In this document: one piece after another, positions 28,244 to 62,613 of the stretch
Layout: every line of letters starts with the position of its first letter
Position numbering within the stretch: position 1 is the stretch's first letter
DNA from: Mya arenaria
Lineage: Eukaryota > Mollusca > Bivalvia > Myida > Myidae
Assembly: GCF_026914265.1 (NCBI RefSeq)
Contig: NC_069124.1
Span: 14,467,088 to 14,531,087, forward strand
Reading direction: 5' to 3'
DNA length: 64,000 nt
Position numbers and translations under genes: made by a program
The notes under the pieces: generated by a model
Told to the model about the DNA's origin: nothing
Database searches by the model: none
The model's input: only the letters and a program-made list of their open reading frames with translations

Positions 28244-31200
28244 ATGAAAATACAAGGAATTTCTCCTAAACATAGCTTTGGGCTTATTTTGGTGCTTGGT
28301 AAGTGATTTTGATTTGTTTTATTAAAAATCAATTATGCAAAATTTATGGATACAGTTTAAATAATAAACGATACAATAATATTTCTTTGGTGGAGGTTGG
28401 CAGCGTATTGACTCGGTATCTAAGACTTGAAGGATTTGGACAATACCTCATACCAGACATTATACTCACGGATTCGGAACTCCTCGGCCATTTTCCATCG
28501 AAAACAACCTCGGATGTATGCCGGTACAGCAGTTGAAGTAGTTTGTAATTTTTGTAAATAATGCTATTAATAAATTGTTGTGTTTTAACGTGTAATTTGT
28601 ATAAATAAGGTTACAGTGATTGTTAGTGACATTGTAAACCGTCCATATACATCCGAGGTCGTTTTCGATGAAAAATAGCCGAGGTGTTTCGAATTGATGT
28701 TGACACACGACCCCCTCCCCACTCCCGGAAAACCAACAAACTTTATGTGTCTGCATGGCTCTCAACTTTATCCGGCCTATACTACATAATGTAATATATA
28801 TATATCATGCATTACAATACAGTGGTGACATTGCTCAATACAAATGTTATATACATTTTAATCTCAATCTGCCATTTTCAACAAATTGAATGGTGAATAT
28901 TGTCCACGATTTCCTGATCCATATGTGACATGCTACGAACAATTCAACAATGCTCGACCTGTTATTTTATTCATCCGCTTGCAATAATGATTAATATTTT
29001 TAAAATTCACTTCGGTAAACTTCTTTTTTCAACCGCCCAGCCCGAACGTCACTGGGTGGGGAATGTTGTAATGGATATCATGACCTGAGTGGTGAGTACC
29101 ATGGCTCCCAGTGGTGCTCCGACTTGTGCTGCGGAAGTTCCAAACTTGGGCTGCTAAATTGTTGCAACACGCCCATCCTCACCGCACCAGACACCGATAA
29201 GTCCACCACATGTGGGAAATTCTTTAAGGAGCCTCAGGATATGTATGAACACAAAGCTGTATTTTTTGTTAAGAAAGAAGAACGCAAAGAAATTATTTAC
29301 GATAGTATTAGTAATCGATTTAATTTACTAGTATTACCAGGAAATATTGTGAATAAATTAATCCGTCTCATTCGGACGGCGGATGCACACACTGTTCCCA
29401 CAATCATGGTCATTTCCACAACCGTGGCCATTCCCATAACCGTGGCCATTTCCACAACCGTGGCCATTCCCATAACCGTGGCCATTTCCACAACCGTGGC
29501 CATTCCCATAACCGTGGCCATTTCCACAACCGTGGCCATTCCCATAACCGTGGCCATTTCCAGAACAATGGTCATTCCCAGAACCGTGGTCATTTCTACA
29601 ACCGCGTTCATCCCCACAACCGTGGCCCTTCCCACACAACCATGGTCATTCCTCAAACCGTGGTCATTCCTACAACCGTGGCTTTTCCTACAACCTTGGC
29701 CATTCCCAAAGCCGTGGCCATTCCCAAAACCGTGGCCATTCCTACAACTGTGGCCATTCCTACAACCGTGGCCATTCCCAAAGCCGTGGTCATTCTAACA
29801 ACCATGAACATTCCCATTACCATGGCCATTCCCACAACCGTGGCCATTCCTACAACCGTGGCCATTCCCAAAGCCGTGGCCATTTTCACAACCATGGACA
29901 TTCCCACAACCGTGGCCATTCCCACAACCATCGCCATTCCCACAACCATGGCCATTCCCACAACCGTGGCCATTCCCAAAGCCGTGGCCATTCTCAGCCA
30001 TTCCCAAAGCCGTGGCCATTCCCAAAACCGTGGCCATTTCTACAACCGTGGCCATTCCTTCAACCGTGGTCATTCCCAAAGCCGTGGCCATTCTAACAAC
30101 CATGGACATTTCCATAACCATGGCCATTCCCACAACCGTGGCCATTCCTACAACCGTGGCCATTCCCAAAGCCGTGGCCATTTTCACAACCATGGACATT
30201 CCCACAACCGTGGCCATTCCCACAACCATCGCCATTCCCACAACCATGGCCATTCCCACAACCGTGGCCATTCCCAAAGCCGTGGCCATTCTCACAACCA
30301 CGGACATTCCCACAACCGTGGTCATTCCTACAACCGCGGCCATTCCCAAAGCCGTGGCCATTCCCACAACCATGGACATTCCCATTACCGTGGCCATTCC
30401 CAAAGCCGTGGCCATTCCCACAACCGTGGTCATTCCTACAACCGCGGCCATTCCCAAAGCCGTGGCCATTCCCACAACCATGAACATTCCCATTACCGTG
30501 GCCATTCCCACAATCATCGCCATTCCCACAACCATGGCCATTCCCACAACCATGGTCATTCTCACAACCATGGCCATTCCCACGACCATCGCCATTCCCA
30601 CAACCATGGCCATTCACACAACCGTGGCCATTCCAACAACCATGCCCATTCCTACGACCGTGACCACAAAGTGCATTCCGTATCATAAACACGAGGTCAG
30701 TGGGGGCATTTCATTTTCTCATAATATTATTGATTACAAAAAAGGGGTAATGACTGTTGATACAGTATACATCTGGTTTAAACAATTTCAGTATTTTAAG
30801 GTGTCCACAGAGGACCTGGAATGCCAAGGTTGTGGTAACATTTGGCCACCGTTTACTTGATAAGCTACGGTTGTGGTCACATTCGGCCACGTTATATGCT
30901 AAGGTTGTGGGGCCGGTCATAGATTTTAGACTTACATATACATATTGTTTGTATATACAGTTCGCGGCATTTATGGTAATCGGGCTATAACAATCTGGGT
31001 AATTTTAATTATAAGATATTTTGATCGGCTTACCCACCTTGCTATGGCCAAAAGTGTACAAGTATCTACCATTTCAAGAGTAAAGTCCCTGCTTTTTTCC
31101 ACAGATGGATACCGATTGTGATCGGGCTGGGAGTAGTGGTATTCCTGGCTGGTCTGGGCAAGGCCATCGCCTGCTGTTGCCAATACTGTGACAAACGGAG

Positions 31201-31575
31201 CGGAACAAACGGAGTACAGCCACAGGAAAGTGCGTTAATGGAACAAATTTCGCAATCGTCTAATTTTATGTTGCAATGTTTTAAAGTCAGTTTTATGTGT
31301 TAACGCTATCATATTTAACGCAAATAGTATACAATAATATATATGTATAATATGTCGATTATAATTTGGAGTTGTTTTTTCCAGCTCCAACTCCGCCCAG
31401 TGAGGCCCGAACAGAAGATTTCCATCACAAACAAACACCACCGATATCACATGTGCGAACACTTCATGTCAACTGTTATTCCGGAAGCCAGTATTCCGGA
31501 TACCTGGTGAAATACAACAACGCGCATGCGCAACAAGCATGGGTGCCACTTGGATCAGAACATGAAAAGGAGTGA
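28244..31575 (+). CDS. Shisa/CYYR1-like transmembrane adaptor SHL0, four exons
   Basis: Exons: 28244-28298 (signal peptide MKIQGISPKHSFGLILVL), 29041-29242 (cysteine-rich), 31105-31229 (transmembrane) and 31385-31575 (tail). GT-AG junctions and phases 1, 2, 1 match genes A-D exactly and give 190 residues. The ectodomain has eight cysteines in the pattern CC..WC-x3-CCG..CC..C (ECCNGYHD, QWCSDLCCGSS, LNCCNTP, TTCGKFF). The helix is WIPIVIGLGVVVFLAGL, followed by ACCCQYCDK. The tail (TPTPPSEARTED... ending EHEKE) lacks the Pro/Tyr repeats and the PPxY motif of A-D. Shisa-like proteins act as membrane adaptors that bind receptors and bring in ubiquitin ligases or sorting factors; the role here is unknown. 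Intron 1 carries a MITE; intron 2 carries an 18-bp minisatellite and a short 40-bp array. It is the divergent, probably oldest member of the cluster. Confidence 0.85.
28472..28694. mobile_element. MITE with long inverted repeats, ATTCGGAACTCC family, copy 1
   Basis: Left end ATTCGGAACTCCTCGGCCAT to CCTCGGATGTAT and right end in inverse orientation (acatccgaggtcgttttcgatgaa to gtttcgaat), about 50-bp arms around about 115 bp. Sister copies are at 42450-42779 and 53018-53222. Lies in intron 1 of SHL0. Confidence 0.8.
29397..30664. repeat. 18-bp minisatellite in SHL0 intron 2, about 70 units
   Basis: Consensus CCATTCCCACAACCGTGG with variants (CATAACC, CAAAGCC, CAACCATGG). Because 18 is a multiple of three, long open frames appear on both strands (up to 348 codons, Gly-His-Ser-His-Asn-Arg type); these are by-products. 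Blocks of several units recur (for example 29820-29980 and 30120-30280), showing higher-order duplication. Confidence 0.95.
30826..30915. repeat. Short 40-bp minisatellite remnant in SHL0 intron 2
   Basis: Two to three diverged units with CCAAGGTTGTGG, ATTTGGCCACGT and TTGATAAG, the same unit as the large arrays at 41408-41813 and 50370-51697. It ends ggttgtggggccgg, as does the 50-51 kb array. Confidence 0.75.
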
Positions 31576-31722
31576 CGTTCGAACATGTGTATCTTGCGTG
31601 TACATGTTTTTAAGTATGTTAAAATGTTCTGAAAAAAATGTTATTTTTCGTGGTCTTAATAGGATAACAAGTTGGCCTCAAATGATGATGGCCACAGCTG
31701 ACATTATTGTTTAATTATTTAA

Positions 31723-32072
31723 GCTGCACTCTCACAGATTGACAGTTTAAACATGTTTTTGTTTGTTATTTTTTTATCTCAGGATCAGATGATTTTAGCA
31801 CCAATGTTTCAATTTAGTCATATAAGATAACTCACAATAGAACAGATCTCAATTGTTTAAAAAACCGGCTGAAAACTTCAATTTTCATAAAGCGTAAGTA
31901 ACGCTTTAACCAACAAACCATCAGTTTTTGACCATAAAATATGAAGAACCGCGATATAATATTTAGACAGCCATCTTATAGCACTGGTTTTCAGACACTT
32001 ACGCAAAAATTGGCTCATTCCAAGACAAAATAAAAAAAATGTCAAAAACGGGCAATTCGTTATAGTGCAGCT
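31723..32072. mobile_element. Foldback MITE, TTAA-flanked family, copy 3
   Basis: Ends GCTGCACTCTCACAGATTGA and TATAGTGCAGCT, flanked by TTAA on both sides. It lies just past the SHL0 stop codon and contains AATAAA at 32029, which could supply that gene's polyadenylation signal (inference). Arms more eroded than copy 2. Confidence 0.78.
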
Positions 32073-32119
32073 TTAAAATTATTACCTTGATATTAAGGTC
32101 TTGTTAAGTGAAGAAACAC

Positions 32120-32365
32120 ATGAACAAAACTGTATCCTGTTAGCACAGTGATTGGCGTACCCGTTTTTCACCAATGCGTCCCCAGTTCGATTCCCGGCCT
32201 TTCCGTATGTAAGTTTGGTTTGTGGTCACCAAGCCGGACATTTTGATTTTCTCGGGTTCTCCGGTTTCCCACACAACTCAACTACACTCTCGCGCAACAT
32301 CGTGATAATGACCATGACTTAGTATAGTTTAATATAACTTTTTCACAATCGTAAAATAAAGCCAA
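32120..32365 (+). mobile_element. tRNA-related SINE, copy 2
   Basis: Box-A-like TTAGCACAGTGATTGGCGTA and box-B AGTTCGATTCCCGG about 35 bases on, then GTGGTCACCAAGCCGGACA, GGTTCTCCGGTTTCC and CGCAACATCGTG. Box B is nearly canonical. Shared with the duplicated block at 52060. Confidence 0.8.
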
Positions 32366-32474
32366 TTTTAACTCAAAGATGCATTGTTACTCCCAAATAA
32401 AGTTCCCAAAATTATTACAATTGTTTTAATATACCCAAAAGGATAAATTAATGTCGAAAACAATGTTTATTATG

Positions 32475-32750
32475 AAGGATACCGAGTTTAATTTGAACGA
32501 AAGGTGCAGAATACACGGTATTTCTACCTAATGGGACGATATTAGACCACAGTTAATATTTGAGCACTCACCGATCATTTAACATGTTTGTGTTTTCAGC
32601 TATTAAATACACAGTTATAATCTTACTATCAGTAATTAATATTTTCCATAAGTGCATTATTTAATAAGTAGTTAAAGGTTAATCACTCAGAATTTATGTT
32701 AATTATACATGTGTATGAATTTGGAATAAGAGTGTCACTTTAAGTAAAAC
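32475..32750 (+). repeat. Dispersed repeat, copy 2 (partner at 2763-3062)
   Basis: Runs from ggataccgagtttaatttga to aataagagtgtcactttaag, colinear with the copy upstream of ALG5. Confidence 0.8.
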
Positions 32751-33131
32751 TTTTAAATATTGATGAAACTCTCAAATTTCAAGTATTTAGATGAATTTCA
32801 ATGCAACCTACACCCTTGAACTAATTAGCCCTAATTGGTTGATTCTGAATGTAAACTATTTTAAACATTTCATTCTTTTGTTGACCACGGATGCAGATGA
32901 TTCCCAGACGCTACCGAAATTCCAATTCTCATTGATGTGTTCTCATGCAGCTATACTTTATATGAACTCTTGATTCTGACATCAGAATGGTACAGTGTGA
33001 GAAAAATATGACATTTGATTTGACTTTGGACTTTTAACTGTTTCGTTGGGACAACTAGAAGTTGTGTGTTTTGGTGTCTCTCTAAAGTTCAACCAGTTTT
33101 ACTAGACTTATATAACGCATAATGCTTAGTA

Positions 33132-33305
33132 CAGTGGAACCCCGTTGGCTCGAACTCGCTTGGCCCGAACTCCTCGTTGGCTCGAACTAGATGTAATGGA
33201 CAGATTCTTTATACTGAAGGTAAACAATCCCGCTTGGCTCGAATTTTCTGAGGCTCGAGGTATTTCCACCAGTCCCTGGGAGTTCGAGCCAACGGGGTTC
33301 GACTG
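33132..33305. mobile_element. pogo/Tc1-like MITE, 174 bp
   Basis: Ends CAGTGGAACCCCGTTGGCTC and GAGCCAACGGGGTTCGACTG form near-perfect inverted repeats, flanked by TA on both sides. CAGT ends with TA duplication fit the pogo branch of Tc1/mariner (inference). Confidence 0.82.
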
Positions 33306-33879: not shown

Positions 33880-34020
33880 GACCCAGGAAAATACATAAAA
33901 GGGGGCATACCTTAGGTGGGTAACCTAATGAATTGCGCCCCCCCCCCCCGAAAAAAACAAAAAAAAACTGAAATGTTTTTGATTTAAAGAGTTGGAAGGT
34001 TTTTTGGGGGGTAAACATGG
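33880..34020. mobile_element. GCGGATCC-type element, fragment
   Basis: ggcggacccaggaaaataca, followed by gggggcataccttaggtggg and a C-run, resembles the left half of the elements at 34898, 45852 and 60370. Incomplete. Confidence 0.5.
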
Positions 34021-34409: not shown

Positions 34410-37400
34410 ATGGAGAATCTTCTAGATGGTTGTCGCGTTTTGCTGGTTCTCATTTCAGGTAAGCAATATTATTGTCACCATAACATACTCATCAACATAA
34501 TCATAAATAACATATGCAAAAGAAGCAACACTTGGAGCAGCAGATGATACGCATTCAACACCGACATTATCATCTTTATCATTGTCGTCGTCTTTTCCAT
34601 CATCCGGAGGGGGATGGGCTGGGCGAGAGGAAGACGGGTCCGTCATATTGACTTCTCTAAGTTGATCAGTAAAACATATAGTTCATGAAATAAAAGAGGG
34701 ATTAATGTGCTGCATTGACGCAAATAAGTAATCATGATGAAACAAGTTACAGACTTTCTCCGCAAATACCATAATGAACTACTTTATAGTTTTACTTTAC
34801 GGTATCCGGCCCATAAATGTGCCGATTATCTGATAAAACCACACCATATTTTTATGCTTGGTGAAACCTTTCACTTTTGGGTCTAAGACGTCTGTTTGCA
34901 GGAGCGGATCCAGAATCCGACGTAAAAGGGGCGTAACTTAGGGGCGTAGCCTTTTGACTTGCGCCCCTCCCTCAATTCCGGAAATTATTTTGTTTAATGT
35001 GTTGGTAGGCGGGCTAGGGGGTACTTAATTTTTTTTTAAAATTTCTTGTCCGAAATGGTGCATTTGGGGCGTATTTTATTACCCTTTTCTCCATATTGAA
35101 ATCTTTTATTTTTTATTATTTTTTTTTTTTTTGGGGGGGGGGGGGGAGGGGCGCCACCGGGATCCGCTAATCCGCAAATCCGTATCCGATCAATAACTGA
35201 ATAACGCTGGAGCCCACGGACCTCAAATTCAGTAGGCTGGTTAGTCCTGACTAGTAGATGAGCCCAATTATTTGAGGTCAGTGGGTCAACCGTCGAGGTT
35301 GTGGTGATTTTGCGCTGAGAATCCGTTTCCGACCAATAACTGAAGAACGCTCGGGCTCAGGGACCTTAAACTTGGAAGGCAGCTTGATCGTGATCAGCAA
35401 ATGAACCTTTCAGATGTGGAGGTCAGTGGATCAAAGGTTAAGGTCAATCATTGATGGAATCTTGGGCTTAGGAACTTCATACTTGGTAGGCAGTTTGAAC
35501 ACTACCAGCGATGACCCCTATTGACAATAGATAACAGGATTCCAATACGGTTAACATAACAAAGCCATTTACCTAATAACATCATTATCTTAAAAGTTAT
35601 CCAGTTCTATTTAATTTGTTTCCTCATTCTCATTAAAACTTTTAATTTTCGTGCAAACTTTTCTATTTAAAAAAAAAAACGGGCAAAAAACTTATCTAAC
35701 GTTATGGTTTTCATATACATACATGTTCAGTTTTGCCCAACACAAACAGACTCTAGTTGACATCCACTCCATCTTGCCACAGTGCTATTCATTTAGGTGG
35801 TCATACTTTGCTTTCAATATTTTCAAATCACATCCGAAGGTCGTCATGAAAATATGTTATCTGTCCATTTAGGATCAGATACTAATGGGTATCTGTCCAA
35901 TGAGGCATTTCAGGGGCATTTGTCACATTCCTGTGACTGTTCTTGTTGAATATTTTTTTCTGCACACAAAACCCCTTCAAATGATACCAAAGCAATAAGG
36001 TCTCGCCTTGCTTAATTCACATATACTTGTATCTGGTACTTTAAAATACATGTAGTACTTCTGAAATAGAATCTGCACTTGAAACCCACGTCGATTTGAC
36101 CAGGGTCCTCATTACATATAAAAACTGTTATCATCGATTGTTTAAATATATTTTTGCTGATGTTTTTTTTCTGCACACTAAGCTTGTTCAAATGATAACG
36201 AAATTATATGGAGTCACAAGTCAACATTCACATACTTGTGTATATAAATACCTTAACAGCTTATTTAAATAGCTTCTGCACTGGATTTGACCAGGATCTT
36301 CAATTCTGATTAATGATTGTATCTATAATTCTATATGCATGGAATATAAAACATGTAATTTTGTACGAACTACTGATAAAAGAAATGAATAAACAATACG
36401 AACTTATATTTTGCTTCAAGTACTCATAAATGTTTGGGGGGGGGGGGGGGACTGCAGATAACACAATATATATTTTAATGGTTTAATGTCGCAACCACAA
36501 ATTATGAAACCGCTTGAAAACGGGTATTTAGCAGATAATCATCTGCTCTTTTAAATGTCAAATTTAAATAATTTATTGGTAAAATCTTGGATTATGACCA
36601 ATTTTGATTTTTTTAATAAAAAGCAATAAGCACTTTTGTATCACAGCCAATACAAAGGAACACAGACTCAGTAAATATGATACAATACACATTTTCCCTG
36701 TCGCGAGCCACATAGCGAGTGCTGTACACATACTGTTGATGTTAATGTTGGCTATTTTTAGCGCACTTTGCTAGCGCTGGTCAGTGCTGCAATTCATACT
36801 ACGACATCACCTTCGACTACCACGACGCCAAGTGGTGCAGCTCCTACTGTTGCGGCGCCTCCACGTCCGGTGTGTTCCTTTCAACATCCGTGGGGGTCCT
36901 CGAATGTTGTGATAACTTCCTGTTGGCAGCCAGTTCTGAAGACACCTCGTCGATTTGTGCGGACTTCTTTCTTCAAAACATGTATGTATTTTAAACGTAC
37001 AATGTCATGTCTTAACAGATATTAAAGGAAATTGTTAGTGTATTATATTGATTCAACCTAACACTGGAAACTCTATCAAGGAGTGTTTTGCATTCTTAGA
37101 ATAATTTGTAGTTTTACTAGTAAAACTTATTTGTTCCATCCCCATATTGAACATCCGCAAAAATAATTATAAATCGTTTGAACTTGTTCACGGTTTTTGT
37201 AATGTTCCATCAGTTGGGTCCCCATCCTGATCGCGCTTGGCGGCCTTGGATCCCTGATCTGTATTTGTGTTGTGGTAGCATGCTGTTGTCAGGGTGGCAA
37301 TCACAGAGGCGGCGTTGTCCAGCCTGCGCAACCACAGACCAGTGAGTACAAACGTTTTTATGTATGAACATTTCAATTTTTGTTTCAAGATGGAAGACAA

Positions 37401-37895
37401 AAAAGGACATGTAGTATCCAAACAATATGCAGGCTTTATTAACAGGCTTAATCAATTGGTTTTTAAAACACACTTCATGGGAGAAATGGACCGTTCTAAT
37501 TGCATCTAATGGTCTCCTCTTCATTTAGAAACAGGGTTGCAGTCTGTGGTAACTTTTGAAATATTGAGATACGCACTTTGTTACTGTAATGTGATTGTTA
37601 CTTCTGAGCCAACGCTGCCATTTCTTCAACCGGATTTAAAAGAATTGTCAATATTTTACCAGGTTTAATAATGGTTGCCGGAAGTAGCAATCCCCAATAC
37701 CCACAAGGTCCATATGGAGCCCAGCAGTACCCTCAAGGCACGTACCCACCCGGGAACCAGGCTCCAGGTTACCCGCCTGGAGCAGCCTACCCACCTGGAG
37801 CCGTTTACCCACCACCCGTGTACGGAGCAGGGACCCAAAGTGCACTTCCGCCCAAACAGAGCGCTGATCATCCATCGGGTGCTGACCAATCTTAA
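34410..37895 (+). CDS. Shisa/CYYR1-like transmembrane adaptor, gene A, four exons
   Basis: Exons: 34410-34458 (MENLLDGCRVLLVLIS signal peptide), 36762-36981 (cysteine-rich), 37214-37341 (helix) and 37663-37895 (tail). Phases 1, 2, 1; 209 residues. The start has a strong context (gccATGG) shared by genes B and C; D has gcATGG. Ectodomain cysteines follow QCCNSYYDITFDYHDAKWC, SSYCCG, LECCDN and SICADFF. The helix is WVPILIALGGLGSLICICVV, followed by ACCCQGG, a likely palmitoylation cluster (inference). The tail has YPPG repeats and PPPVYGAG, a PPxY motif of the kind bound by WW domains of NEDD4-type ligases. This tail is the longest of the four because one YPPGA segment is duplicated. The large intron 1 (2.3 kb) holds a GCGGATCC-type element and 145-bp repeats. 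Confidence 0.9.
34898..35175. mobile_element. GCGGATCC-type MITE in gene A intron 1
   Basis: Begins gcaggagcggatccagaatc, contains ggggcgtaacttaggggcgt and ttgcgcccctccctca, and ends ggggcgccaccgggatccgc, so the ends are inverted. Homopolymer T/G runs near 35115-35148 interrupt it. Confidence 0.65.
35176..35520 (+). repeat. Degenerate tandem repeat, about 145-bp period, in gene A intron 1
   Basis: Units start near cgctggagcccacggacctc (35205) and cgctcgggctcagggacctt (35350), with a third at about 35458. It contains GTCAGTGGGTCAAC-type motifs. The same family occupies 44100-44800 in gene B intron 1. Confidence 0.65.
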
Positions 37896-41350: not shown

Positions 41351-41407
41351 ACCTTGTTTATTAACTTGCCGTTTACCGTTAAATTAAAACAGAATTAAAA
41401 CATAGCG

Positions 41408-41813
41408 CCATGGTTGTGGTATAATTTGGCCACGTTTGCGTGATTAGCCAAGGTTGTGGTATAGTTTGGTCAGATTTGCGTGATGAGCCACGGTTGTGGT
41501 ATAATTTGGTCAGGTTTGCGTCATAAGCTAAGAGTGTGGTATAATTTGGTCACGTTTGCGTAATGAGCCAGGGTTGTGGTATAATTTGGTCACGCATTTG
41601 ATTGATGAGCCAGGGTTGTGGTATAATTTGGCCAGGTTTGCGTGATTAGCCAAGGTTGTGGTATAATTTGGCCAAGTTTGTGTGATAAGCCAAGGATGTG
41701 GTATATTTTGGCCACGTTTGCGTGATAAGCCAAGGTTGTGGTATAATTTGGTCAGGTTTGCGTGATAAGCTAAGATTGTGGTATAATTTGGCCAAGTTTG
41801 CGTGATAAGTCAA
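41408..41813. repeat. 40-bp minisatellite, about 10 units
   Basis: Unit CCAAGGTTGTGG, then TATAATTTGGCCACGT and TTGCGTGATAAG, 40 bp. Same family as 30826-30915 and 50370-51697. Open frames on the minus strand are caused by the repeat. Confidence 0.92.
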
Positions 41814-43597: not shown

Positions 43598-46500
43598 ATG
43601 GAGAATCTTCTAGGCGGTTTTCGCATTTTGCTGGTTCTCATTTCAGGTAAGCAATATTATTGTCACCATAACTTACTCATCAACATAATCATCATTATCA
43701 GCAGCAACAGATGCAACACCACCAACACCGTCTTATTCATCAACCGGGGAATGTATAAAGCATTGAGCTCTAGCGGACTCGGGAGGTGGGGGTGTGCGGG
43801 GTAAGCATTGCCTAAGTCATGGTTAATATGGTTAATATGGTAAATAAATTCTGCATGAATAACCCATCCAAATGCACCATTTAAGACCAAGCTTAGTAAA
43901 AACAAACACCACTTGTCATGTTTAGAGCCTTTTTGGGGTTTTCCTTGGGGAGGGGCACCCCCTTTAACGTCAAATCCTGAAATTGCCCTTGTAAAGTATT
44001 TGCTCTTTATTGCAACTGAAATCGGACGCAAGATGACATATTCTGGAATCTTTTAAGACAAAAAAAAACATGTTTGTTATATTGCTTCAGGTTTATTTAG
44101 ATGCTCTCCCGAAAGATCGGCATTTAATTATCGGCCCGTCCCTCCGTCCGTCCATCTGTCTCATCAGCAGATGAAACAACGATTTTGAGGTCATTCAAGG
44201 TTGTGATGATTTAGCTGAAACCCCGTATCCGGGCAATAACTAAATAACGCTAGAGTCCTGGGACTTCAAACTCTGTAGGCCGGTTGGTCTTAACCAATAT
44301 ATTCGCCCAAATGACTTTTAGGTCAGTGGGTCAATGGTCAAGGTTGTGGTGACCTTGAGCTGAACATCCGTTTCGGATCAATAACCGAAACACGCTCGGT
44401 CCCATGGACTCTAATCTTTGAAGGCTGGTTGGTCGTGACAAGTAGATGAACCGTTTCGATCTTGAGGTCAGTCAGTCAAATGTGAAGATGAGGACCTTGA
44501 GCTGAATATCAATAAATACGAAGCCCGTTCAAATGATACCAAAATGATATGTGCATACAACACCGGGGATGAACAAAAAAAGTCACTTGACCACAAATAA
44601 ATAACTGTAGAACGCTCGAGCTCAGAGACCTCAGACGTGGAAGGCAGCTTGGTCATGACCAGCAGAGGTCAGTGGGTAAAAGGTTAAGGCCAATAACTTA
44701 TGAACACTTAGGCATAGGAAGGCAGTTTTAAACACTTGCAGCGATGTCACTGATAATGGATACCAGGATTTCAATACGGTACACATGACAAAGCCGTTTA
44801 CCTACTAACATCATTCAATTAAAAGTTATTCAATGCTAGTTACTTTGTTTCTTCATTTTCTTTATTATACATTTTGTTTGTTCATACCATATTTTCTATT
44901 ACTGCAGTATAGGTTTTCATTACTAAAAATGAATCCTCGCAATCTCTAACTTTATGTAAAGTGTTCACATACACACCAGTGTCCAACACTCTCATTTAAA
45001 AGTAATACACACACGAATTGACACCCACTCCACCTTGTATTGTCTTGTCTTCTTGAACATACTATGCTCTTTAAAACTGTTTGTGATCGCTAGTTTCAAA
45101 CTGCATGGGTATACGTTATATACTTAAGGTTATCTGTCCATAGAAGCCCAAATACTAATGAATATCTGTCGGGGGCATATGTCTCGATCCTGTGACAGTC
45201 CTTGTTGAATAGTATTTTTCTTCACACAAAACCGGTACCGCTAGCAGGGTGGCTACCAATGGTTCAAAAGTAAGATGTGGCTGCCAGGCAAAATTTCTCA
45301 TATCTTGGTATCTGGTACAAAAAAAATAGTTGTTGAATTTGAATCTGCACTTGAAAACCACATCGATTAGACCAGGATCATCGATTGCTTAGTTATATTT
45401 TTAAAATGTTTTCTGCACACCAAATCCGTTCAAATAATACCAAAATAATATGGGCATACAAGTCAACATTCACATATTTTGAAATAGAAGCTACGCTTGA
45501 AAACCACGTCGATTTGACCAGGACCATCAGTACTTATTGATAATTGTATCCATCGAATGTTTACAAATACTTTAATAACGTTTTCCTGCACACCAAACCA
45601 GTATAAATGTAATATCGGTCACAAGGCAAGATTCACATACTTGTGTATCTTATACCATCACAGCTTTTTGAAAAAGCTTCTGCACTGGATTTGACCAGGA
45701 CCTTCAATACTGATTAATGATTGTATCTATATGCGTGGAATATAAAACATGTTATTTTGTACGAAATACTGATAAAAGAAATGAATAAGTAATACACACT
45801 TGTGTTTTGTTTCAAGTACTCCTTAATTACTAGAGTGAACACAATATACAGGTGCGGATCCAGGAATTGACGTTAGAGGGGGCGTAACTTAGGGGCGCAA
45901 CTTTTGACATGTGCCTCTCCCTCAGAACCGAAAGTATATGGCATGAACTGTTCGTATGGGGATTGGGGGTTACTCCCTCATGAAAATTTTAACAATTTGT
46001 AGTTGGAAATGGTGTATTATGAACTTGGATGATTTTAGAGGGGGCACACGCCGGGTGCGCCCCCTCTTAATCCGCTTGTGATATATATTAATGGCTTAAT
46101 CTCGCCACTGGTTTCTGAAAGCCGCCTTAAAAGGGGTAACTAGCCAAAACCATTTGCTCCATAAAATGTCAAATTTAAATATTTTATGGTTATATCTTGG
46201 ATATTGGCCAATTTTGAAAAAAAAATCAAAGACAAAAGCAAAATCGTATCAATAGCGTTCATATAGATCTGTGCAGGTCGTGTCCCTCTGTATATACGGC
46301 AATGACATATTTCTAATGCATAAAAGACATGTTAATGATTCATATTAACAATATTATCTGAGACACACTTATCTGAGACACACTCATGGTGAATGTCCGA
46401 ATACAGATGATATGAACATCGCCTCTGCCGCAAACCCCATAACGAGCGCTGTACATTGGTACGTACCGTGCTGCAATGCATCCCTTTAACAAGGTTACTG

Positions 46501-47695
46501 TGTATGTGATATTAATTAACGTTAACGTTGGCTATTTTAGCGCACGTTGCTAGCGCTGGTCAGTGCTGCAATGCTTACTATGACATCACGTTCGAGTACC
46601 ACGACGCCCAGTGGTGCAGCTCCTACTGCTGCGGTACCTCCACGTCCGGTGGGTTCCTTTCAACATCCGTGGGGGTCCTCGAATGTTGTGATAACTTCCT
46701 GTTGGCAGCCAGTTCTGAAGACACCTCGTCGGTTTGTCCGGACTTTTTTCTTCAAAACACGTATGTATTTTAAACGAAAAATACGATGTCTTTAATGGTT
46801 TTTGGACCACATAATACCTGAGGCGATTCAAGGATATGGAAATTGTTCGTGTATTATTTCATGTACATGTATATTGATTCAACAAAAATCGGTCAATGTC
46901 GTTTTACATGCTTGGAAAAAATGGAGATTTGTAAGTACATCTAACTTATTCCATCACCATACTGAACATCCGCAATAATAATTATATGACTCAAATGTTT
47001 GTCTTGTTAACGGTCTTTGTGATGTTTCATCAGTTGGGCGCCCATCCTGATCGCGTTTGGCGGCCTTGGATCCCTGATCTGTATTTGTGTAGTGGTAGCA
47101 TGCTGTTGTCAGGGTGGCACTCACAGAGGCGCTGTAGTCCAGCCTGCACAACCGCAGATCGGTGAGTACAACCGCCTTTATGTACGAACATATCAACGCG
47201 TGGTTAAGATGGAAGAAATATCCAAACAGCATGCAAGCATCAGGCTTCATTAATTGTTTTTCAAAGACCCTTTCCCGGGAGAAATATTTTTGTCATCTCT
47301 TTATTTATGAGACGGAGCATACAAATTGCATTTAATGGTCTCGGCCGTCATGCAGAAACAAGGCTGCAGCATTTGGTATTAAAAAATAAGAAACAAACTT
47401 TGCAAATGTTATGTAATTGTTAATTTTGTGCCAACGGTGTCATTCTTCAACAATACTGAAATTCCAGGTCTTTCCTGGCTTTCAAATGATGTCAAAACGT
47501 GTTTCAGGTTTGATAACGATTGCTGGAAGTAGCAATCCCCAACACTCACAATGCCCATATGGAGTCCAGCAGTACCCTCCAGGCGCGTACCCACCCGGGA
47601 ACCAGGCTCCCGGTTACCCGCCTGGAGCAGCCTACCCGCCACCCGAGTACGGAGCAGGGGCCCAAAGTGCATTTCCGCCCAACCAGAGCGCTTGA
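43598..47695 (+). CDS. Shisa/CYYR1-like transmembrane adaptor, gene B, four exons
   Basis: Exons: 43598-43646 (MENLLGGFRILLVLIS), 46541-46760, 47034-47161 and 47508-47695; phases 1, 2, 1; 194 residues. The ectodomain carries the eight conserved cysteines (QCCNAYYDITFEYHDAQWC, SSYCCG, LECCDN, SVCPDFF). The helix is WAPILIAFGGLGSLICICVV with ACCCQGG. The tail keeps YPPGAYPPGNQAPGYPPG and the PPxY motif as PPPEYGAG, but stops soon after (FPPNQSA). AATAAA at 47848 is a plausible polyadenylation signal. Intron 1 (2.9 kb) holds 145-bp repeats and a GCGGATCC-type element, arranged as in gene A. No disabling change seen. Confidence 0.9.
44100..44800 (+). repeat. Degenerate tandem repeat, about 145-bp period, in gene B intron 1
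   Basis: Unit starts at about 44248, 44393 and 44613, with motifs GACTTCAAACT.TGTAGGC, GGTCAGTGGGTCAA and GTGACCTTGAGCTGAA. An insertion of about 75 bp separates the second and third units. Matches gene A intron 1 (35176-35520). Confidence 0.65.
45852..46082. mobile_element. GCGGATCC-type MITE in gene B intron 1
   Basis: Starts gtgcggatccaggaattgac with gttagagggggcgtaactta and ends tgcgccccctcttaatccgc. The inverted ends (GCGGATYMAG, GGGGGCGCA) are clearest in this copy. Confidence 0.75.
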
Positions 47696-50369: not shown

Positions 50370-51697
50370 GTGGCCAGTTTTGCGTTAAGTGCCAATGCTG
50401 TGGTATAATTTGACCACGTTTGCGTGAAGTACCAATTCTATGGTATAATTTGGCCACGTTTGCGTGAATAGCCAATGCTATGGTATAATTTGGCAACGTT
50501 TTCGTACAGTGCCAATGCTGTGGTATAATTTGGCCACGTTTGCTTGAATAGCCAATGCTATGGTATAATTTGACCACGTTTGCGTGAATAGCCAATGCTG
50601 TGGTTTAATTTGGCCACGTTTGCGTGAAGTGCCAATGCTGTGGTATAATTTGGCCACGTTTGCGTGAAGTGCCAATGCTGTGGTATAATTTGGCCACGTT
50701 TGAGTGATGAACCAATGCTGTGGTATAAATTGGCCACGTTTGCGTGATAAGCCAATGCTGTGGTATCATTTGGCCATGTTTGTGTGATGAACCAATGCTG
50801 TGGTATAATTGGCCCATGTTTGCGTGATGAGCCAATGCTGTGGTATAATTTGGCCACGTGTGCGTGATGAACTAATGCTGTGGTATAATTTGGGCACGTG
50901 TGCGTGATTAGCCAATGCTGTGGTATAATTTGGCCAAGTTTGCGTGAAGTGCCAATGCTGTGGTATAATTTGGACACGTTTGTGTGATAGACCAATGCTG
51001 TGGTATAATTTGGCCAGGTTTGCGTGATTAGCCAATGTTGTGGTATAAATTGGCCCATGTTTGCGTGATGAGCCAATGCTGTGGTATAAATTGGCTACGT
51101 TTCCGTGATGAGCCAATATTGTGGTATAAATTGGCCCATGTTGCGTGATAAGCCAAGGTCGAGGTATAAATTGGCCCATACTTGCGTGATTTGCCACGGT
51201 TTTGGTAATATTTGGCCACGTTTGCGTGATAAGCCAAGCGTATTATTTGGCCACCGTTTGCGTGATATTCCATGGTTGTGGTATAATTTGGCCAGGTTTG
51301 TGTGATAAGCCAAGGTTGTGGTATACTTTGGCCACGTTTTCTTAATAAGCCAATGATTGTGGTATAATTTGGTCACGTTTGCGTGATTTGCCACGGTTTT
51401 GGTAATATTTGGCCACGTTTGCGTGATAAGCCAAGCGTATTATTTGGCCACCGTTTGCGTGATTTGCCATGGTTGTGGTATAATTTGGCCCATGTTTGCA
51501 TGATTTGCCAGTGGTGTGGGGCCAAGGTTTTGATAAAGTTTGGCAAGGTTTGCGTGATAAGCCAAGCGTATAAATTGGCCACCGTTTGCGTGATTTGCCA
51601 TGGTTGTTGTATAATTTGGCCACGTTTGCGTGATTTGCCACGGTTGTGGTATAATTAACCCTTGTTTGCGTGATTTGTCAGGGTTGTGGGGCCGGCC
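50370..51697. repeat. 40-bp minisatellite, about 33 units
   Basis: Regular 40-bp spacing of gccaatgctgtggtataatt (for example 50591 and 50631). The second half changes to CCAAGG/CCACGG variants and has a higher-order duplication: about 85 bp at 51181-51266 recurs at 51378-51463. Since 40 is not a multiple of three, three units make a 40-residue repeat in every frame, producing many long spurious frames on the minus strand. Confidence 0.95.
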
Positions 51698-51699: not shown

Positions 51700-51816
51700 T
51701 TTGTGTGTGCGAACACTTCCTGTTTACTGGTATTTCGGAAACCAGTATACCGGGTATCTGGTAAAATAAAACAACGCGCATGCGCATCAAACATGAAATG
51801 AACATGAAAAGGAGTG
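51700..51816 (+). pseudogene. Truncated copy of SHL0 exon 4
   Basis: gtgcgaacacttcctgttta, then ggaaaccagtataccgggta, aacaacgcgcatgcgca and acatgaaaaggagtga match SHL0 exon 4 from about 31450 to its stop at 31575. It is broken: an in-frame TAA follows ctggtaaaa, and the first third of the exon, intron 3 and the transmembrane exon are missing. The 40-bp array abuts it directly through ggttgtggggccgg, which in SHL0 lies in intron 2 (30900-30915). A deletion of about 530 bp relative to SHL0 explains the junction. Confidence 0.85.
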
Positions 51817-53795: not shown

Positions 53796-56581
53796 ATGGA
53801 GAATCTTCTAGACGTTTGTCGCGTTTTGCTTGTTCTCATTTCAGGTAAGCAATAACGGGAATTGTCATCCTAACATCCCCACGTGCATATTAAAAATCTT
53901 TATCATCAACAGCAGTAGCAGCAACAGTTGGATCAGCAGCAGTAGCAGCAATAATTGGATCAGCATCAGTAGCAGCAACAGTTGGATCAGCGACAGTAGC
54001 AGCAATAGTTGGATCAGCAACGGTAGCAGCAACAGTTGGATTAACAGCAGTAGCAGCAACAGTTGAATCAGCAGCAGTAGCAGCAATAATTGGATCAGCA
54101 GCAATAGAGGCAACAGTTGGATCAGCAGCAGTAGCAGCAATAATTGAATCAGCAGCAGTAGCAGCAACAGTTGGATCAGTGGCAATAGCAGCAATAGTTG
54201 GATCAGCAGCAGTAGCAGCAACAATTGGATTAACAGCAGTAGCAGCAACAGTTGAATCAGCAGCGGTAGCAGCAATAGTTGGATCAGCAGCAGTAGCAGC
54301 AACAGTTGAATCAGCAGCGGTAGCAGCAATAATTGAATCAGCAGCAGTAGCAGCAACAGTTGGGTCAGCGGCAGTAGCAGCAATAGTTGGATCAGCAGCA
54401 GTAGCAGCAATAGTTGGATCAGCAGCAATAGCAGCAATAGTTGGATCAGCAGCAGTAGCAGCAACAGTTGAATCAGCAGCGGTAGCAGCAACAGTTGGAT
54501 CAACAGCAGTAGCAACAACAGTTGGATCAATAGCAGTAGCAGCAACAGTTGGATCAGCAACAGTAGCAGCAACAGTTGGATAAGCAGCCGTAGCAGCATC
54601 AGTTGGATCAGCAGCAGTAGCAACAAAAGTTTGATCAGCGGCAGTAGCAGGAACAGTTGGATCAGCAGCAGTAGCAGCAATAATTGGATCAGCAGAAGTA
54701 GCAGCAACAGTTGGATCAACAGCAGTAGCAGCAATAGTTGGATCAGCAGCAATAGCAGCAATAGTTGGATCAGCGGCAGTAGCAGCAACAGTTGGATCAG
54801 TAGCAGTAGCAGCAACAGTTGGAGCAGTAGCAGTAGCAACAACGGTTGAATTAACAGCGGCCACAACAACGTCATAATCGCTATCATTATTCTTTTCGTC
54901 ATTTTCGTCATCATCACTAGCGGATCCATCGGAAATTGGGGGAGGGGGGTGTGTGTGAAAATTACAATATTATATTATAAGCTTTCAGTTATTACTGTTT
55001 GTGTATTTACTCTAAATTTTTAGGTTTATGTTTTGAATATTAATTTATTGCACCCAAAAATAAATAAGTAATAATACGGACTGGCCTGGCAAAGACCAGA
55101 CATTTTATTCATATATAGTAAGAATGAACAGACCTCTTGGAGATCCATTGGTGCAAATTTATGCCAATTGTCCGCGTTCTCAGTAGATGATACAAAGCAC
55201 ATCTCATTTATAGTGAATTTCACATTGATACATACCGTTCTGCATAGCAACTTTGTCACAACGTGGCTGAGAATATGCTGTTGACGACATGGCTATTTTC
55301 AGCGCACGTTGCAAGCGCTGGTCAGTGCTGCAATGCTTACTACGACATCACGTTCGACTACCACGACGCCAAGTGGTGCAGCTCCTACTGCTGCGGCACC
55401 TCTACGACCGGTGGGATCTTCACAGCGTCCGTTGGGATCCTCGAATGTTGCGATAACTTCCTTTTGGCAGCCAGTTCTAAAGACACCTCAGTGGTGTGTG
55501 TGGACTTCTTTGTACAAAACATGTATGTATCTTAAACGAACAATACCATGTCTTTAAGAGCTTAGGGACAACACAACACATGAGAGGTTTCTTTAAATAT
55601 AAGGACGAAATTCGTGTTTAATTAAATAGATTCAACTTAATACTGGAAAAATTGTAGTAAAAAGTAAAATCATAGTTACATAATTTAAAAAATGATCAAT
55701 ATTTGTATGTTTGCTAGTACATCTTTCTTTTTAATTTCCAGAACGTGCATCCACAAAGATTAACATAATAAAACATATTATATTCTATATGCTCAGAATA
55801 ATTTGTAGTTTTGCTAGTATATCCTATTGGTTCCATCCCCATATTGTACATCCGCAAAATAATTATATGCCTCAAATGTCTTCAACTGTTCATGGTCTTT
55901 TAAATGCCCTCACAGTTGGGTACCCATCCTGATCGGGATTGGTGGACTTGTTGGCCTTGGTGTTGTGGTAGCCATCTGTTTTCAGCATGGCAATCGAAGA
56001 GGTGCCGTTGTCCAGCCTTCACAACCACAGACCGGTGAGTACATTTATGAACATATCAAAGCATGGTTAAAGATTGAAGAAGACATTCATTATACAAACA
56101 GTGCGCCAGCTTCATTAGCAAAGTGTTTACAATTTTCTATTTCCCGGCAGAAATGTGTTTGCCACCGCCTTATGTATTAGTCAGATCGCCTGTCACGCAG
56201 ATACAGGGTTGCAGTCAGTGGTAACTTTTGAAAAAAAAATATCAGATACAAAGTCACGTTATTAATGTAGCGGAATGTTGATTTATGATCCAACGATGAC
56301 ATTTATTCAACGAAATTGAACTCCTAGGTATTTTTGTACTTTAAAGTAATTGTCAATCATGTTCAGGTTTGGTAATGGTTGCCGGAGGTTACAATCCCCA
56401 ATACCCACAAGGCCCATATGGTGCCCAGCAGTACCTTCCGGGCGCGAACCCACCCGGGAACCACGCGCCTGGCTACCCCCTTGGAGCAGCCTACCCGCCA
56501 CCCGTGTACGGAGCAGGGGTCCAAAGTGCCAATTTGCCTCAAAAAAGTGCTGGACACCCAATGGTTGCAGACGAACCCTAA
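53796..56581 (+). CDS. Shisa/CYYR1-like transmembrane adaptor, gene C, four exons
   Basis: Exons: 53796-53844 (MENLLDVCRVLLVLIS), 55303-55522, 55916-56034 and 56367-56581; phases 1, 2, 1; 200 residues. The eight ectodomain cysteines are kept (QCCNAYYDITFDYHDAKWC, SSYCCG, LECCDN, VVCVDFF). The transmembrane exon is nine bases shorter than in A, B and D: WVPILIGIGGLVGLGVVVAI, then CFQHG, so the ACCCQ cluster of A and B is reduced to one cysteine. The tail retains PPPVYGAG (PPxY) and ends VADEP. AATAAA at 56636 lies 55 bases past the stop. Intron 1 begins with a 0.95-kb minisatellite about 60 bases after the splice donor. Confidence 0.9.
53904..54858. repeat. 27-bp minisatellite in gene C intron 1, about 35 units
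   Basis: Unit GTTGGATCAGCAGCAGTAG plus CAGCAACA, 27 bp, with CAA/AAT and GGA/GAA variants. It is in a multiple of three, so long open frames (up to 354 codons, Leu-rich on the minus strand) appear on both strands and are not genes. In genes A, B and D the same intron position carries only short ATC/CAG-type repeats. Confidence 0.95.
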
Positions 56582-56649
56582 CATGTCGATATTATGCATA
56601 TCTTTAAAAATGATATTTTCATTGTATTTTCATACAATAAAAAATATAA

Positions 56650-58540: not shown

Positions 58541-59038
58541 GAGAGAGACCCCTTAAAGCATGTAACTTACTTAAATTCTGTGTTCTTGACAATACATGTC
58601 AAAGTGGTGACATTCCGGGTATTAGTTTGTGGAGACTAGTTTCCTTAAAACCAAGGAAATGGCATAACCACAGAACGTGTGGAAGTTTGTCTCCCAGTAA
58701 TAGAGAATTTATGTTTTATTGATCCAACAAATAATTATTTTCATTTTCCGAAAATGATCAATACGCTTTACGAGTTACAATAAGCCAGGACATTGAACAA
58801 AATCAATCGGGTGCAGAGTGCACCGTTAGCTGCATGAATTCTATTGTTTGAAAATTAAATAAAAGCATGTATTATGTATAATCCATTACGACAGATTGAT
58901 TGAAATAAGGACAATCATTATGATCGTTGATTGGAAATGGAAATTTAGTTTATTAAAGGTAGTTAAAAATGATGCTAAACCATTAGCGCCAAAGACAAAA
59001 TAAACTGATAAAAGTGATTTTTAAAGTTAACGTAAGGC

Positions 59039-59193
59039 ATGGAGAATCTACAAGATGGATGTCGCGTTTTGCTGTTTCTCATTTCAGGTAAGCAATACCA
59101 TTGTCATCCTAACATCTTCATCAACATAGCAATCTTGATAACCATCAGCTGTAGTCACAGCGCCCACACTATAACCACCGTCCCAATCATCAT

Positions 59194-59224
<31 letters not shown>

Positions 59225-59519
59225 AGCAGCATCAAAAACGAATTTTACAGGGTGAGTGGGATTTTATGTAATATTGTCCGAGTGAACTTTTCATTTTAAA
59301 ATGGTAGAAAAATAGGCATATAAAACACCAAAATGCACCATAGCTCAATCTAGGCATTTACTTGAAGGTCACCCAAACTTCTGAAGATCATTTAGAGTAT
59401 ATATTTTTCTGTATATATATCTGGAACGGGTCAAAACTCTTATTTTCATCCTCGTCATCATCATCATCATCATCATCAGCAGCATCATCATCAGCAGCAG
59501 CAGCAGCAGCTGCTGCTGA

Positions 59520-59557
<38 letters not shown>

Positions 59558-62500
59558 CCATCATTATGAGTTCTGTTAATAGTCTTGTTTAGTTTATCCG
59601 CGATTATATAAGATGCTTATCTGATAATACCACTAATGATCATGTTAAATTTTCGATGCCTTGTGACCTCAGACAATTTTAGTATTGTTTAAAGCGGTAA
59701 TACATGTTGATTAACATATCTAAATATGGAAATGAATTGATCAAAAATACGTTGTGCATTAAGTTATTACTATGTTTGCAACAGTTTTTAACCTAATACG
59801 AAAATGATATGGGATCACGAGGTAAATTCATATTTATGTTTCTGATACCTTAGCAGCCTTTAATTAAAACAACATACCACGTCGATTTGTCCAGGATCCT
59901 CAATACTTATTTCAGATTGCAACTATGCTCCGAATAAACAAAATTATGCTATTTTTATTTGCCAAAATGAATACGCAATGCGTATTTCTGTTTTGTTTCA
60001 AGTACTCCGAAATGGATCGGAGTGAACACAGTATATAATATTTAGAGATGGCATCGAGTATTAAAATTGGTACTCGAGTACTCGGACGATCTCTTCGATA
60101 CTCGGGTACTCAATTACTCGGATACCTTGCCTTTTAGTTTTCGGGAAAGACAAGTCAGTGTATATACATGTATCGTTCATGTATTTTGTGCGTTAGTCGT
60201 AATCATTAATCAAAACTGTCATTTAATATGTACCTTAACAGAAAAATCACTAAAAAGAAAACTATTTGGTACTCGGGTAATCGGATGATTAATCGGGTAC
60301 TCGAGTACTCAGGTACTCATTGTCATTCCTAATAATATTGGATGAACTCCAATTTTGAACTGTCCCGAGATTAAATTAAGTTCAAGGATGGGGTTTTCAT
60401 CACGTAACTTAGGGGCCTTTTGACTTGCGCCCTTCCCTCCGATACGAAACCTTTTGGTTTAAAGTGTTGCTAGAGGGTGTTGAGGGTAGGGGGTACTCCT
60501 CCAATACAATTTTAACCATTTCTAATCTAATGATGCATTTTGGGCTTATTGCATTACTTTGTTTTTATTGTATTGAAATTTAAAGTAAAACTTGGACAAT
60601 CTTAGGGGGGTCCGGAAGTTCCCCCCCGACCCCTTCTGCTCCGGGATTAAGATGATAAGCATTGGTAACCGGTGCAATTGCGTATATCTAATTTACGTCT
60701 TAGGCCATACCAACTCTTTGGTTTTGTTTAACATTAGTCCCAGACCTAAAAACAAGAAATCCAAACAAATTAAATTAAATTAAAAAATCCAAGAACATGA
60801 ACCCTTTAGTTTAAAAGCAAAATTACAGTCTTGTCATTGTTGATACTTTTCATGGTGATCAATAAATACTGAATGCAAATAACAGCGTGTAACCTGCAAT
60901 CATAACTCTAAGGTTATGATCATCATTAATAGTGCAAAACAAGAGGATTTTTCGTTTCAAAACCAGTCCTTCAATACTCCATACATGAATTTAGCCCAAA
61001 AACCCTTTACTTGCATATGTAGGGCAAAAAGAAATACTCAATAAAAAATCAAACAAAATACGCATTGTTAGCGGTATACGAAGTAGTACTACGTTATAGG
61101 ATATTTGCATATTAGTTGAAGAACAAGAACCAAATTTCCTCGCTTAAGTTCACATGCTCTTAGTTGGCTCGGGTTATATACGTCCACGAGGTGTATATAT
61201 CCAAAACGTACTGTCAATATACTATGGACTATACCGTTGGTTATTTTCAGCGCATGTTGCTAGCGCTGGTCAGTGCTGCAATGCTTACACCGATTACAAG
61301 TTCGAGTACCACGACGCCAAGTGGTGCAGCTCCTACTGCTGCGGCACCTCCTCAATCGGTGGCATCTTTACAACATCCTTGAGGATCCTCGAATGTTGTG
61401 ATAACTTCCTGTTAACAGCCAGTTCTGAAGACACCTCAGCGATGTGTCCGGACTTTTTTGCCCAAAATGTGTATGTATTTAAAACACATTCTGAATTTGT
61501 TGTCTTTAAGATCTCCGTATCACATAACACTTGTGGCCTTTTACATTATCTGTGTGTAATTATTTTGATTCAACTCAACACTGGAGCGCCCAGAGTTGTT
61601 TAACACATAGAGGAAACGGTTAAAAATAAAACAGAATAATATAGTGGACCCTTTACATGTTTAAAATAATTTGTATTTTTGTAAGTACATCTAATTTGTC
61701 TCATCCCCATATTGCACATCCGCATACACTATAATATGACCCGAATGTTTTCAACCTTTCACGGTCTTTTTTTCATGTCGCCTTAGTTGGGTACCCATCC
61801 TGATCGCAGTTGGCTGCCTGGGATCTCTGATCTGTCTGTGTGTAGTGATAGCATGTTGTGTCAAGGGTGGCAATCGGACAGGCGTCGTGGTTCAACCTGC
61901 ACAACCACAGGCCAGTGAGTACATCTACCATTATTGTTTGTTGATGAACATATTAATGTTTGTTCCATTATTGAAATTCATGTACATTTTCCATCGTTTT
62001 TGTCATTTCCTAATTTATGGAACCGACAGTGCAAATAACATTTAAGCGTGTTGTCCGTCAGCGTTGTAGCCAGTGATAAGGTTTGGATAAATGAGATACA
62101 AACTTTGGTACTGTGATAACAGTTGAATTAACTGTAAAGTAGTGGGGTGAGAGCGGTCTAGTGGAATATGTGTCCGCCTCTCACCCAAAAGGTGGCGAGT
62201 TTGAATCCAACGCGGAATACATGTACTTTTTCATGGTCTCTCAGGTGGACACCAGTACTGGTTTCTACGCAGGAAACAGATATATAAGATGTCATTCCCA
62301 TTCATCAGAGGTTGATTAATGATAAATCAAACATGTACGAGAATGATATGCGATCAGCTTTTGTCATAATCTAATTGCTGAGCAAACGATGTAATTTCTT
62401 CAACCAAGTAAAATTTCAATTTCTTCCTTTTAACTAATTATCAATCATTTACCAGATTTGATAATGGTTGCCGGAGGTTACAATCCTGAATACCCACAAG

Positions 62501-62613
62501 GCCAATATGGAGCTCAACAGTACCCCCAAGGCGCGTACCCGACCGGGACCAACGCAAACGTCTACCCGCTTGAAGCAGCCTACCCGCCACTCGTGAACGG
62601 AGCAGGCAACTAA
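59039..62613 (+). CDS. Shisa/CYYR1-like transmembrane adaptor, gene D, four exons; PPxY lost
   Basis: Exons: 59039-59087 (MENLQDGCRVLLFLIS), 61251-61470, 61787-61914 and 62456-62613; phases 1, 2, 1; 184 residues, the shortest member. The ectodomain keeps all eight cysteines (QCCNAYTDYKFEYHDAKWC, SSYCCG, LECCDN, AMCPDFF). The helix is WVPILIAVGCLGSLICLCVV with ACCVKGG. The tail diverges: YPTGTNANVYPLEAAYPP, then LVNGAGN and the stop, so PPPVY has become PPLVN and the normal end (about 10-30 residues) is missing. All splice sites are intact, so the gene may be expressed with an altered tail. AATAAA at 62913. Intron 1 carries CAT/CAG microsatellites, a hAT-like MITE and a GCGGATCC-type element. 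Confidence 0.87.
59184..59231. repeat. (ATC)n(AGC)n microsatellite in gene D intron 1
   Basis: Run of ATC repeats changing to AGC repeats about 100 bases after the exon 1 donor, the position occupied by the 27-bp array in gene C. Confidence 0.9.
59448..59562. repeat. (ATC)n/(AGC)n microsatellite with palindromic centre
   Basis: ATC runs interrupted by AGC blocks and by CAGCAGCAGCTGCTGCTG, a perfect inverted repeat, then a further (ATC) run of about 14 units. Confidence 0.9.
60043..60331. mobile_element. hAT-like MITE, 289 bp, in gene D intron 1
   Basis: Starts TAGAGATGGCATCGAGTA and ends inverted (GAGTACTCAGGTACTCATTG to CATTCCTA), rich in TACTCGAGTA palindromes. Flanked by the perfect 8-bp duplication ATAATATT (60035-60042 and 60332-60339). 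The 8-bp duplication and TAG.GATG ends fit the hAT superfamily (inference). Confidence 0.88.
60370..60655. mobile_element. GCGGATCC-type element, eroded, in gene D intron 1
   Basis: Contains cacgtaacttaggggccttt, ttgcgcccttccctccgata and aggggggtccggaagttccc, the body motifs of the elements at 34898 and 45852. The terminal GCGGATCC is lost. Confidence 0.55.
62146..62290 (+). mobile_element. tRNA(Glu)-related SINE in gene D intron 3
   Basis: GAGCGGTCTAGTGGAATATG (box A), CCGCCTCTCACCC (CTC in anticodon position) and GGCGAGTTTGAATCCAACGC (box B) resemble the head of a tRNA-Glu-like sequence. A body with ggtggacaccagtactgg follows. Not an intact tRNA. Confidence 0.65.

Follow-up and report, generated by a model that had tools for sequence, protein, structure and literature searches.

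Gene models and other features of the locus

The window analysed here, 64,000 nucleotides of Mya arenaria DNA, contained five intact four-exon genes, termed SHL0 and SHL-A to SHL-D, arranged head to tail on the forward strand. The array extends from 28244 to 62613, with SHL0 exon 1 starting at the former position and SHL-D exon 4 ending at the latter (Table 1). The sequence-only reading had proposed five genes with these limits and one exon plan. Models rebuilt from the DNA agreed with it: each gene formed a single open frame, the intron phases were 1, 2, and 1 in all five, and GT-AG boundaries were present at 15 of 15 introns. Five gene structures that agree in this way at their splice sites are not a product of chance. 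The array could continue beyond the right edge of the window.

Exons 1 and 2 were 49 and 220 bases long in SHL-A to SHL-D, and 55 and 202 bases long in SHL0. The initiation codons of SHL-A, SHL-B, and SHL-C were found in the context GCCATGG, and exon 1 of SHL0 was the sole ATG-to-donor candidate with a phase-1 GT[AG]AG donor in approximately 2.8 kb (26251–29030). The deduced proteins of 190 (SHL0), 209 (SHL-A), 194 (SHL-B), 200 (SHL-C), and 184 (SHL-D) amino acids shared the same plan: the N-terminus was hydrophobic and was followed by eight cysteines, a single helix, and a tail of approximately 50–75 residues. Hydropathy indicated one strong hydrophobic segment in every protein, in line with the single helix described earlier; signal peptides were assessed by hydropathy alone, and that of SHL0 was weak.

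Table 1 Exons of the SHL genes and the exon remnant in the window.
Feature	Position	Strand	Basis
SHL0 exon 1 (signal peptide start, ends in phase 1)	28244..28298	+	rebuilt model, donor scan
SHL0 exon 2 (eight-Cys ectodomain)	29041..29242	+	model; Shisa_N E 0.0013, 19.2 bits
SHL0 exon 3 (IW motif, transmembrane helix, CCCQYC)	31105..31229	+	model, hydropathy
SHL0 exon 4 (tail without PPxY)	31385..31575	+	model, motif scan
SHL-A exon 1	34410..34458	+	rebuilt model
SHL-A exon 2 (ectodomain)	36762..36981	+	model, Cys alignment, Pfam
SHL-A exon 3 (transmembrane helix, ACCCQ)	37214..37341	+	model, hydropathy
SHL-A exon 4 (tail: PGYPPGAAYP, PPVY)	37663..37895	+	model, motif scan
SHL-B exon 1	43598..43646	+	rebuilt model
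SHL-B exon 2 (ectodomain)	46541..46760	+	model, Cys alignment, Pfam
SHL-B exon 3 (transmembrane helix)	47034..47161	+	model, hydropathy
SHL-B exon 4 (tail: PGYPPGAAYP, PPEY; stop 47693-47695)	47508..47695	+	model, motif scan
SHL0 exon 4, broken remnant (in-frame stop, deletion)	51706..51814	+	DNA homology, onward into 3' flank to 51970
SHL-C exon 1	53796..53844	+	rebuilt model
SHL-C exon 2 (ectodomain)	55303..55522	+	model, Cys alignment
SHL-C exon 3 (helix; nine bases shorter than in A, B, D; Cys cluster reduced)	55916..56034	+	model, hydropathy
SHL-C exon 4 (tail: PGYPLGAAYP, PPVY)	56367..56581	+	model, motif scan
SHL-D exon 1	59039..59087	+	rebuilt model
SHL-D exon 2 (ectodomain)	61251..61470	+	model, Cys alignment
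SHL-D exon 3 (transmembrane helix)	61787..61914	+	model, hydropathy
SHL-D exon 4 (truncated tail without PPxY and PxYPx4YP)	62456..62613	+	model, motif scan

Most of SHL0 intron 2 was occupied by an 18-bp minisatellite of approximately 71 copies (TTCCCACAACCGTGGCCA; 29395–30666), one frame of which was open for 443 codons with a GHSHN-type repeat. SHL-C intron 1 harboured a further minisatellite, which began approximately 60 bases past exon 1 and had a 27-bp unit in 35 copies (ATCAGCAGCAGTAGCAGCAACAGTTGG; 53905–54848). Retrotransposon remains at 17391–19215 comprised fragments of a reverse transcriptase (RVT_1, under the cut-off) and an RNase H (above the cut-off). Two open frames gave no Pfam match: one of 338 codons just upstream of SHL0 (25195–26211), which we take to resemble the C-terminal portion of an HSP70 relative of the HSPA12 type, and one at 4943–5236, a stretch of which presumably resembles the dolichyl-phosphate glucosyltransferase ALG5.

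Cysteine pattern and family placement

The cysteine order previously read from the sequence, CC..WC-x3-CCG..CC..C, was confirmed in all five ectodomains (the third loop being shorter in SHL0) and corresponds to the pattern CC..C..CC..CC..C. Definitions of the STMC6 superfamily were taken from papers citing its founding paper (Pei and Grishin 2012); as quoted there, members have one helix, six luminal cysteines in the order C..C..CC..CC (PMC5578492), WY/WF/IW adjoining the membrane, and a tail rich in prolines (PMC6125347); a signal peptide and, commonly, PPxY in the tail also belong to the plan. Every SHL protein contained the six-cysteine order, plus an extra cysteine beside the first and one more at the end. 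The eight-cysteine pattern of Shisa proper, C..C..CC..C..CC..C (PMC10531659), was found in none, as the single cysteine between the two CC pairs, after CCG, was missing. The second cysteine of the first SHL pair was in register with the first Shisa cysteine, the preceding one being the extra residue. Since the cysteine number stays at eight, it can reasonably be inferred that the SHL ectodomain has a changed disulfide partner. The juxtamembrane motif was IW in SHL0, SHL-A, and SHL-C, TW in SHL-B, and VW in SHL-D. The tails of SHL-A to SHL-C were proline-rich with one PPxY each, that of SHL-D was proline-rich without PPxY, and that of SHL0 had few prolines and no PPxY.

The Pfam model Shisa_N (PF13908) matched all five exon-2 ectodomains with the conserved cysteines in register; none of the matches reached the curated cut-off of 22 bits. 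SHL0 gave the best match (E 0.0013, 19.2 bits), the E value for SHL-A was 0.05, and SHL-A and SHL-B scored 14.1 and 14.3 bits; Shisa3, used as a control, scored 63.1 bits. Apart from one weak compositional match, no other Pfam family matched all five ectodomains, and eight shuffles of SHL0 that preserved the cysteine positions gave no match. Full-length SHL proteins yielded weak Pfam matches at most, and no family reached its cut-off.

SHL0 was then aligned with the N-terminal domain of Shisa3 (PDB 5m0w), an entry located with a vertebrate Shisa query and used only for its PDB letters. The score was 61, compared with 30.2 ± 5.2 in cysteine-fixed shuffles, of which 0 of 2000 scored as high; because the target was selected as a known Shisa, this is a pairwise test and not a database E-value. 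SHL0 and Shisa3 had the C-x15-C spacing and C-x-G-x2-D-x2-G-x-Y-H in common. SHL-A to SHL-D scored 41–45, values equalled or exceeded by 16–73 of 2000 shuffles. As these four alone are near the shuffles, the Shisa link rests mainly on SHL0, to which they are tied by the common exon plan, the phases, and 41–44% of ectodomain residues. With the Shisa_N register in all five and the SHL0–Shisa3 score well above the shuffles, the Shisa-like assignment of the sequence-only reading was upheld.

Several weaker matches were rejected. CMC4 (E 0.09–0.9) was compositional, weaker than Shisa_N, and lay on the other half of the domain; SpoIIM (E 0.004 for SHL-C), MLANA, and Myticin-prepro were under their cut-offs and compositional or helix-driven. 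PDB profile searches with the full and the ectodomain alignments gave no Shisa match, and CXCR4 and RUMGNA_01417, low-scoring matches of the full alignment, were attributed to the helix or composition. A single-sequence PDB search with SHL0 returned only chance matches, and no SHL relatives were found in viral contigs. AlphaFold models of two exon-2 ectodomains had mean pLDDT values of 41.2 and 40.5; since both were of low confidence, they lend no fold support to the Shisa assignment.

Could the resemblance to Shisa be convergent, the SHL genes encoding an unrelated small cysteine-rich membrane family, e.g., a lineage-specific membrane-anchored defence or matrix protein? The sub-threshold Shisa_N scores, the recurrence of CC-rich domains, and the near-background scores of SHL-A to SHL-D against Shisa3 would agree with this, and defence genes often occur in duplicated arrays. 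However, SHL0 matches Shisa3 in register, spacing, and non-cysteine residues beyond cysteine-fixed shuffles, the juxtamembrane IW and the proline-rich tails of SHL-A to SHL-D fit the STMC6 plan, and no other Pfam family reaches its cut-off. We thus consider convergence unlikely.

The CYYR1 model (PF10873) gave no match to the five SHL proteins at E values up to 1 (full proteins) or 10 (ectodomains), and the WBP-1 model (PF11669) matched none of the proteins or ectodomains. A control, for which a CYYR1 sequence was used, confirmed that both models were present in the profile library. The CYYR1-like label given earlier was accordingly dropped. Membership in another STMC6 branch (CYYR1, WBP1/VOPP1) instead of the Shisa branch would entail the same architecture of signal peptide, cysteine-rich domain, helix, and PPxY tail (PMC11399591, PMC6125347), but it is very unlikely, as Shisa_N matches where these two models do not and SHL0 has the Shisa C-x15-C spacing. 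Judged from sequence, the six-cysteine order and the juxtamembrane IW place the SHL genes in the Shisa-like (STMC6) superfamily, outside Shisa proper. We classed them as Shisa-like, and not as Shisa proper or CYYR1, because they have the STMC6 cysteine order and single helix, lack the Shisa pattern, and are unmatched by the CYYR1 and WBP-1 models.

Putative docking motifs in the tails

The tails of SHL-A, SHL-B, and SHL-C contained PGYP[PL]GAAYP, a PxYPx4YP motif, followed by PP[VE]Y, a PPxY motif. The sequence-only reading had not pointed out these shared motifs or their absence from SHL-D and SHL0. In composition-matched shuffles of these tails, PxYPx4YP occurred in 0.3–0.8% and PPxY in 25–34%; only the former therefore exceeds what composition predicts. 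PxYPx4YP in the three genes represents a single inherited motif, not three independent ones. The Ca2+ sensor ALG-2 is known to bind PPYP-x4-YP and to tolerate PXYP, and type 1-like ALG-2 sites occur in Scotin/Shisa5 and in annexins A7/A11 (PGYPPPPGGYP) (PMC5037681). CYYR1 uses its PPxY motifs to bring the ligase WWP1 to late endosomes (PMC11399591).

Relative to SHL-A to SHL-C, SHL-D carried a CAA to TAA nonsense change that shortened its tail; PPLVN replaced PPPVY and NVYP replaced PGYP, by which both putative docking sites were lost and the ectodomain was kept. The SHL0 tail was unrelated to the other four and contained neither PPxY nor PxYPx4YP.

Origin of the array and selection

DNA alignment revealed homology between the SHL units in flanks and introns as well as in exons. 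The first-exon spacing was 9.2 (A–B), 10.2 (B–C), and 5.2 kb (C–D). SHL-A and SHL-B were the closest pair (dS 0.14; 0.33–0.48 for the other pairs of SHL-A to SHL-D), and the tree of the four was unresolved with both coding sequence and introns (supports 45–63). The overall identity of SHL0 with SHL-A was 36%, and dS between SHL0 and SHL-A to SHL-D was mostly saturated; on these sequences, SHL0 is an older paralogue than the other four. A broken remnant of SHL0 exon 4 preceded SHL-C (Table 1). The simplest reading would be that a block comprising an SHL0 3' end and an A-type gene was duplicated and that the SHL0 copy in it died. No further SHL relics were found besides this remnant.

Pairwise dN/dS among SHL-A to SHL-D, determined by simple counting on 51–73 codons per exon, was 0.27–0.55 for exon 2 and 0.38–0.92 for exon 4, and the whole-CDS values of 0.33–0.58 indicate constraint on these genes. 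The contrast of a conserved ectodomain with a diverging tail, suggested before, stood in its direction, exon 4 having the higher value in five of six pairs; it was reversed for the pair of SHL-A and SHL-D, and exon 4 remained below 1 in all pairs, so that positive selection was not shown by these values. Decay of most of the duplicates, with one or two genes expressed and the tail loss of SHL-D being decay and not a working form, would accommodate the nonsense change in SHL-D and the broken SHL0 exon already present upstream of SHL-C, but is improbable since all five frames and 15 introns are intact and dN/dS of the pairs with SHL-D is 0.33–0.58, not approximately 1.

Introns 2 and 3 of SHL-A to SHL-D were only 65–74% identical between units, compared with the A–B synonymous divergence of 0.14. 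This contrast could reflect exon-centred gene conversion or constraint, and it may be exaggerated by gappy intron alignments. Related 40-bp minisatellites were observed upstream of SHL-B (41407–41813) and SHL-C (50371–51519), with a short relative in SHL0 intron 2 (30823–30910); this repeat possibly marks the duplicated blocks.

Discussion

Here, we proposed that the SHL array probably encodes type I membrane adaptors of the Shisa-like (STMC6) superfamily that were multiplied by tandem duplication. Most likely, the SHL proteins would act as trafficking or degradation adaptors, two of them without docking motifs; a defining activity of Shisa-like adaptors is to bind a client receptor and mislocalise or degrade it. 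The undescribed surface-receptor adaptor set envisaged in the sequence-only reading is likewise a hypothesis. The disulfide-bonded luminal domain would hold a membrane protein as its client within the secretory/endosomal pathway, and the juxtamembrane cysteines may be palmitoylated. In the tails of SHL-A to SHL-C, PPxY would dock WW-domain ubiquitin ligases of the NEDD4 family, by analogy with CYYR1, and PxYPx4YP would dock ALG-2, by analogy with Scotin/Shisa5; docking may then route the client either to retention or to degradation in lysosomes. As a near copy that has kept the ectodomain and helix but not the two docking motifs, SHL-D could engage the same client and yet not direct it to degradation; it may compete with SHL-A to SHL-C. 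SHL0, the older paralogue, may use a different tail signal. It is conceivable, although doubtful, that the array forms an adaptor set specific to this lineage, with the same ectodomain joined to docking-competent tails in SHL-A to SHL-C and to docking-deficient tails in SHL-D and SHL0. Such a set would act in receptor turnover as a built-in pair of active and decoy forms, and its Shisa domain would have a relocated cysteine and hence perhaps a rewired disulfide.

Among known proteins, Shisa4 and Shisa5 (Scotin) are likewise single-pass type I proteins with a cysteine-rich luminal domain, a proline-rich tail, and cysteines where the helix meets the cytosol, and Scotin has a type 1-like ALG-2-binding motif (PMC5037681). 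Within the Shisa1/L1 subfamily, the invertebrate members group with Shisa5 (PMC7653359). In contrast to Shisa4 and Shisa5, the SHL proteins lack the fifth Shisa cysteine (CCG-x-C), have an extra cysteine before the first, and are encoded in a tandem array; SHL-D and SHL0 also lack PPxY and the ALG-2-type motif. The N-terminal domain of Shisa3 shares with SHL0, in register, the block C-x-G-[YW]-x-D-x2-G-x-Y-H-x4-C and CCGS. CYYR1 has the same architecture and a PPxY tail, which recruits WWP1 (PMC11399591), but its profile does not match the SHL proteins, and it has three PPxY motifs compared with one in each of SHL-A to SHL-C. WBP1/WBP1L/VOPP1 resemble them in the STMC6 architecture, PPxY, and juxtamembrane aromatic motif (PMC6125347), yet the WBP-1 profile does not match. 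The array seems to represent locally expanded members of a known protein type and not a new type, since the encoded proteins are Shisa-related, three of them keeping tail motifs predicted to recruit ubiquitin ligases and ALG-2 and two having none.

No description of a tandem Shisa-like array in molluscs was found in the literature searched, which included few subscription journals. A 2020 survey reported one or two Shisa genes in those protostomes having any, and none in one mollusc (PMC7653359), and Shisa-domain genes were over-represented in gill in a mussel transcriptome atlas (PMC5549309). The presence of at least five sub-threshold Shisa-like genes in one array suggests that surveys undercount the family in this lineage. 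With SHL-D and SHL0, natural tail-loss paralogues are at hand for testing which of the tail motifs is important.
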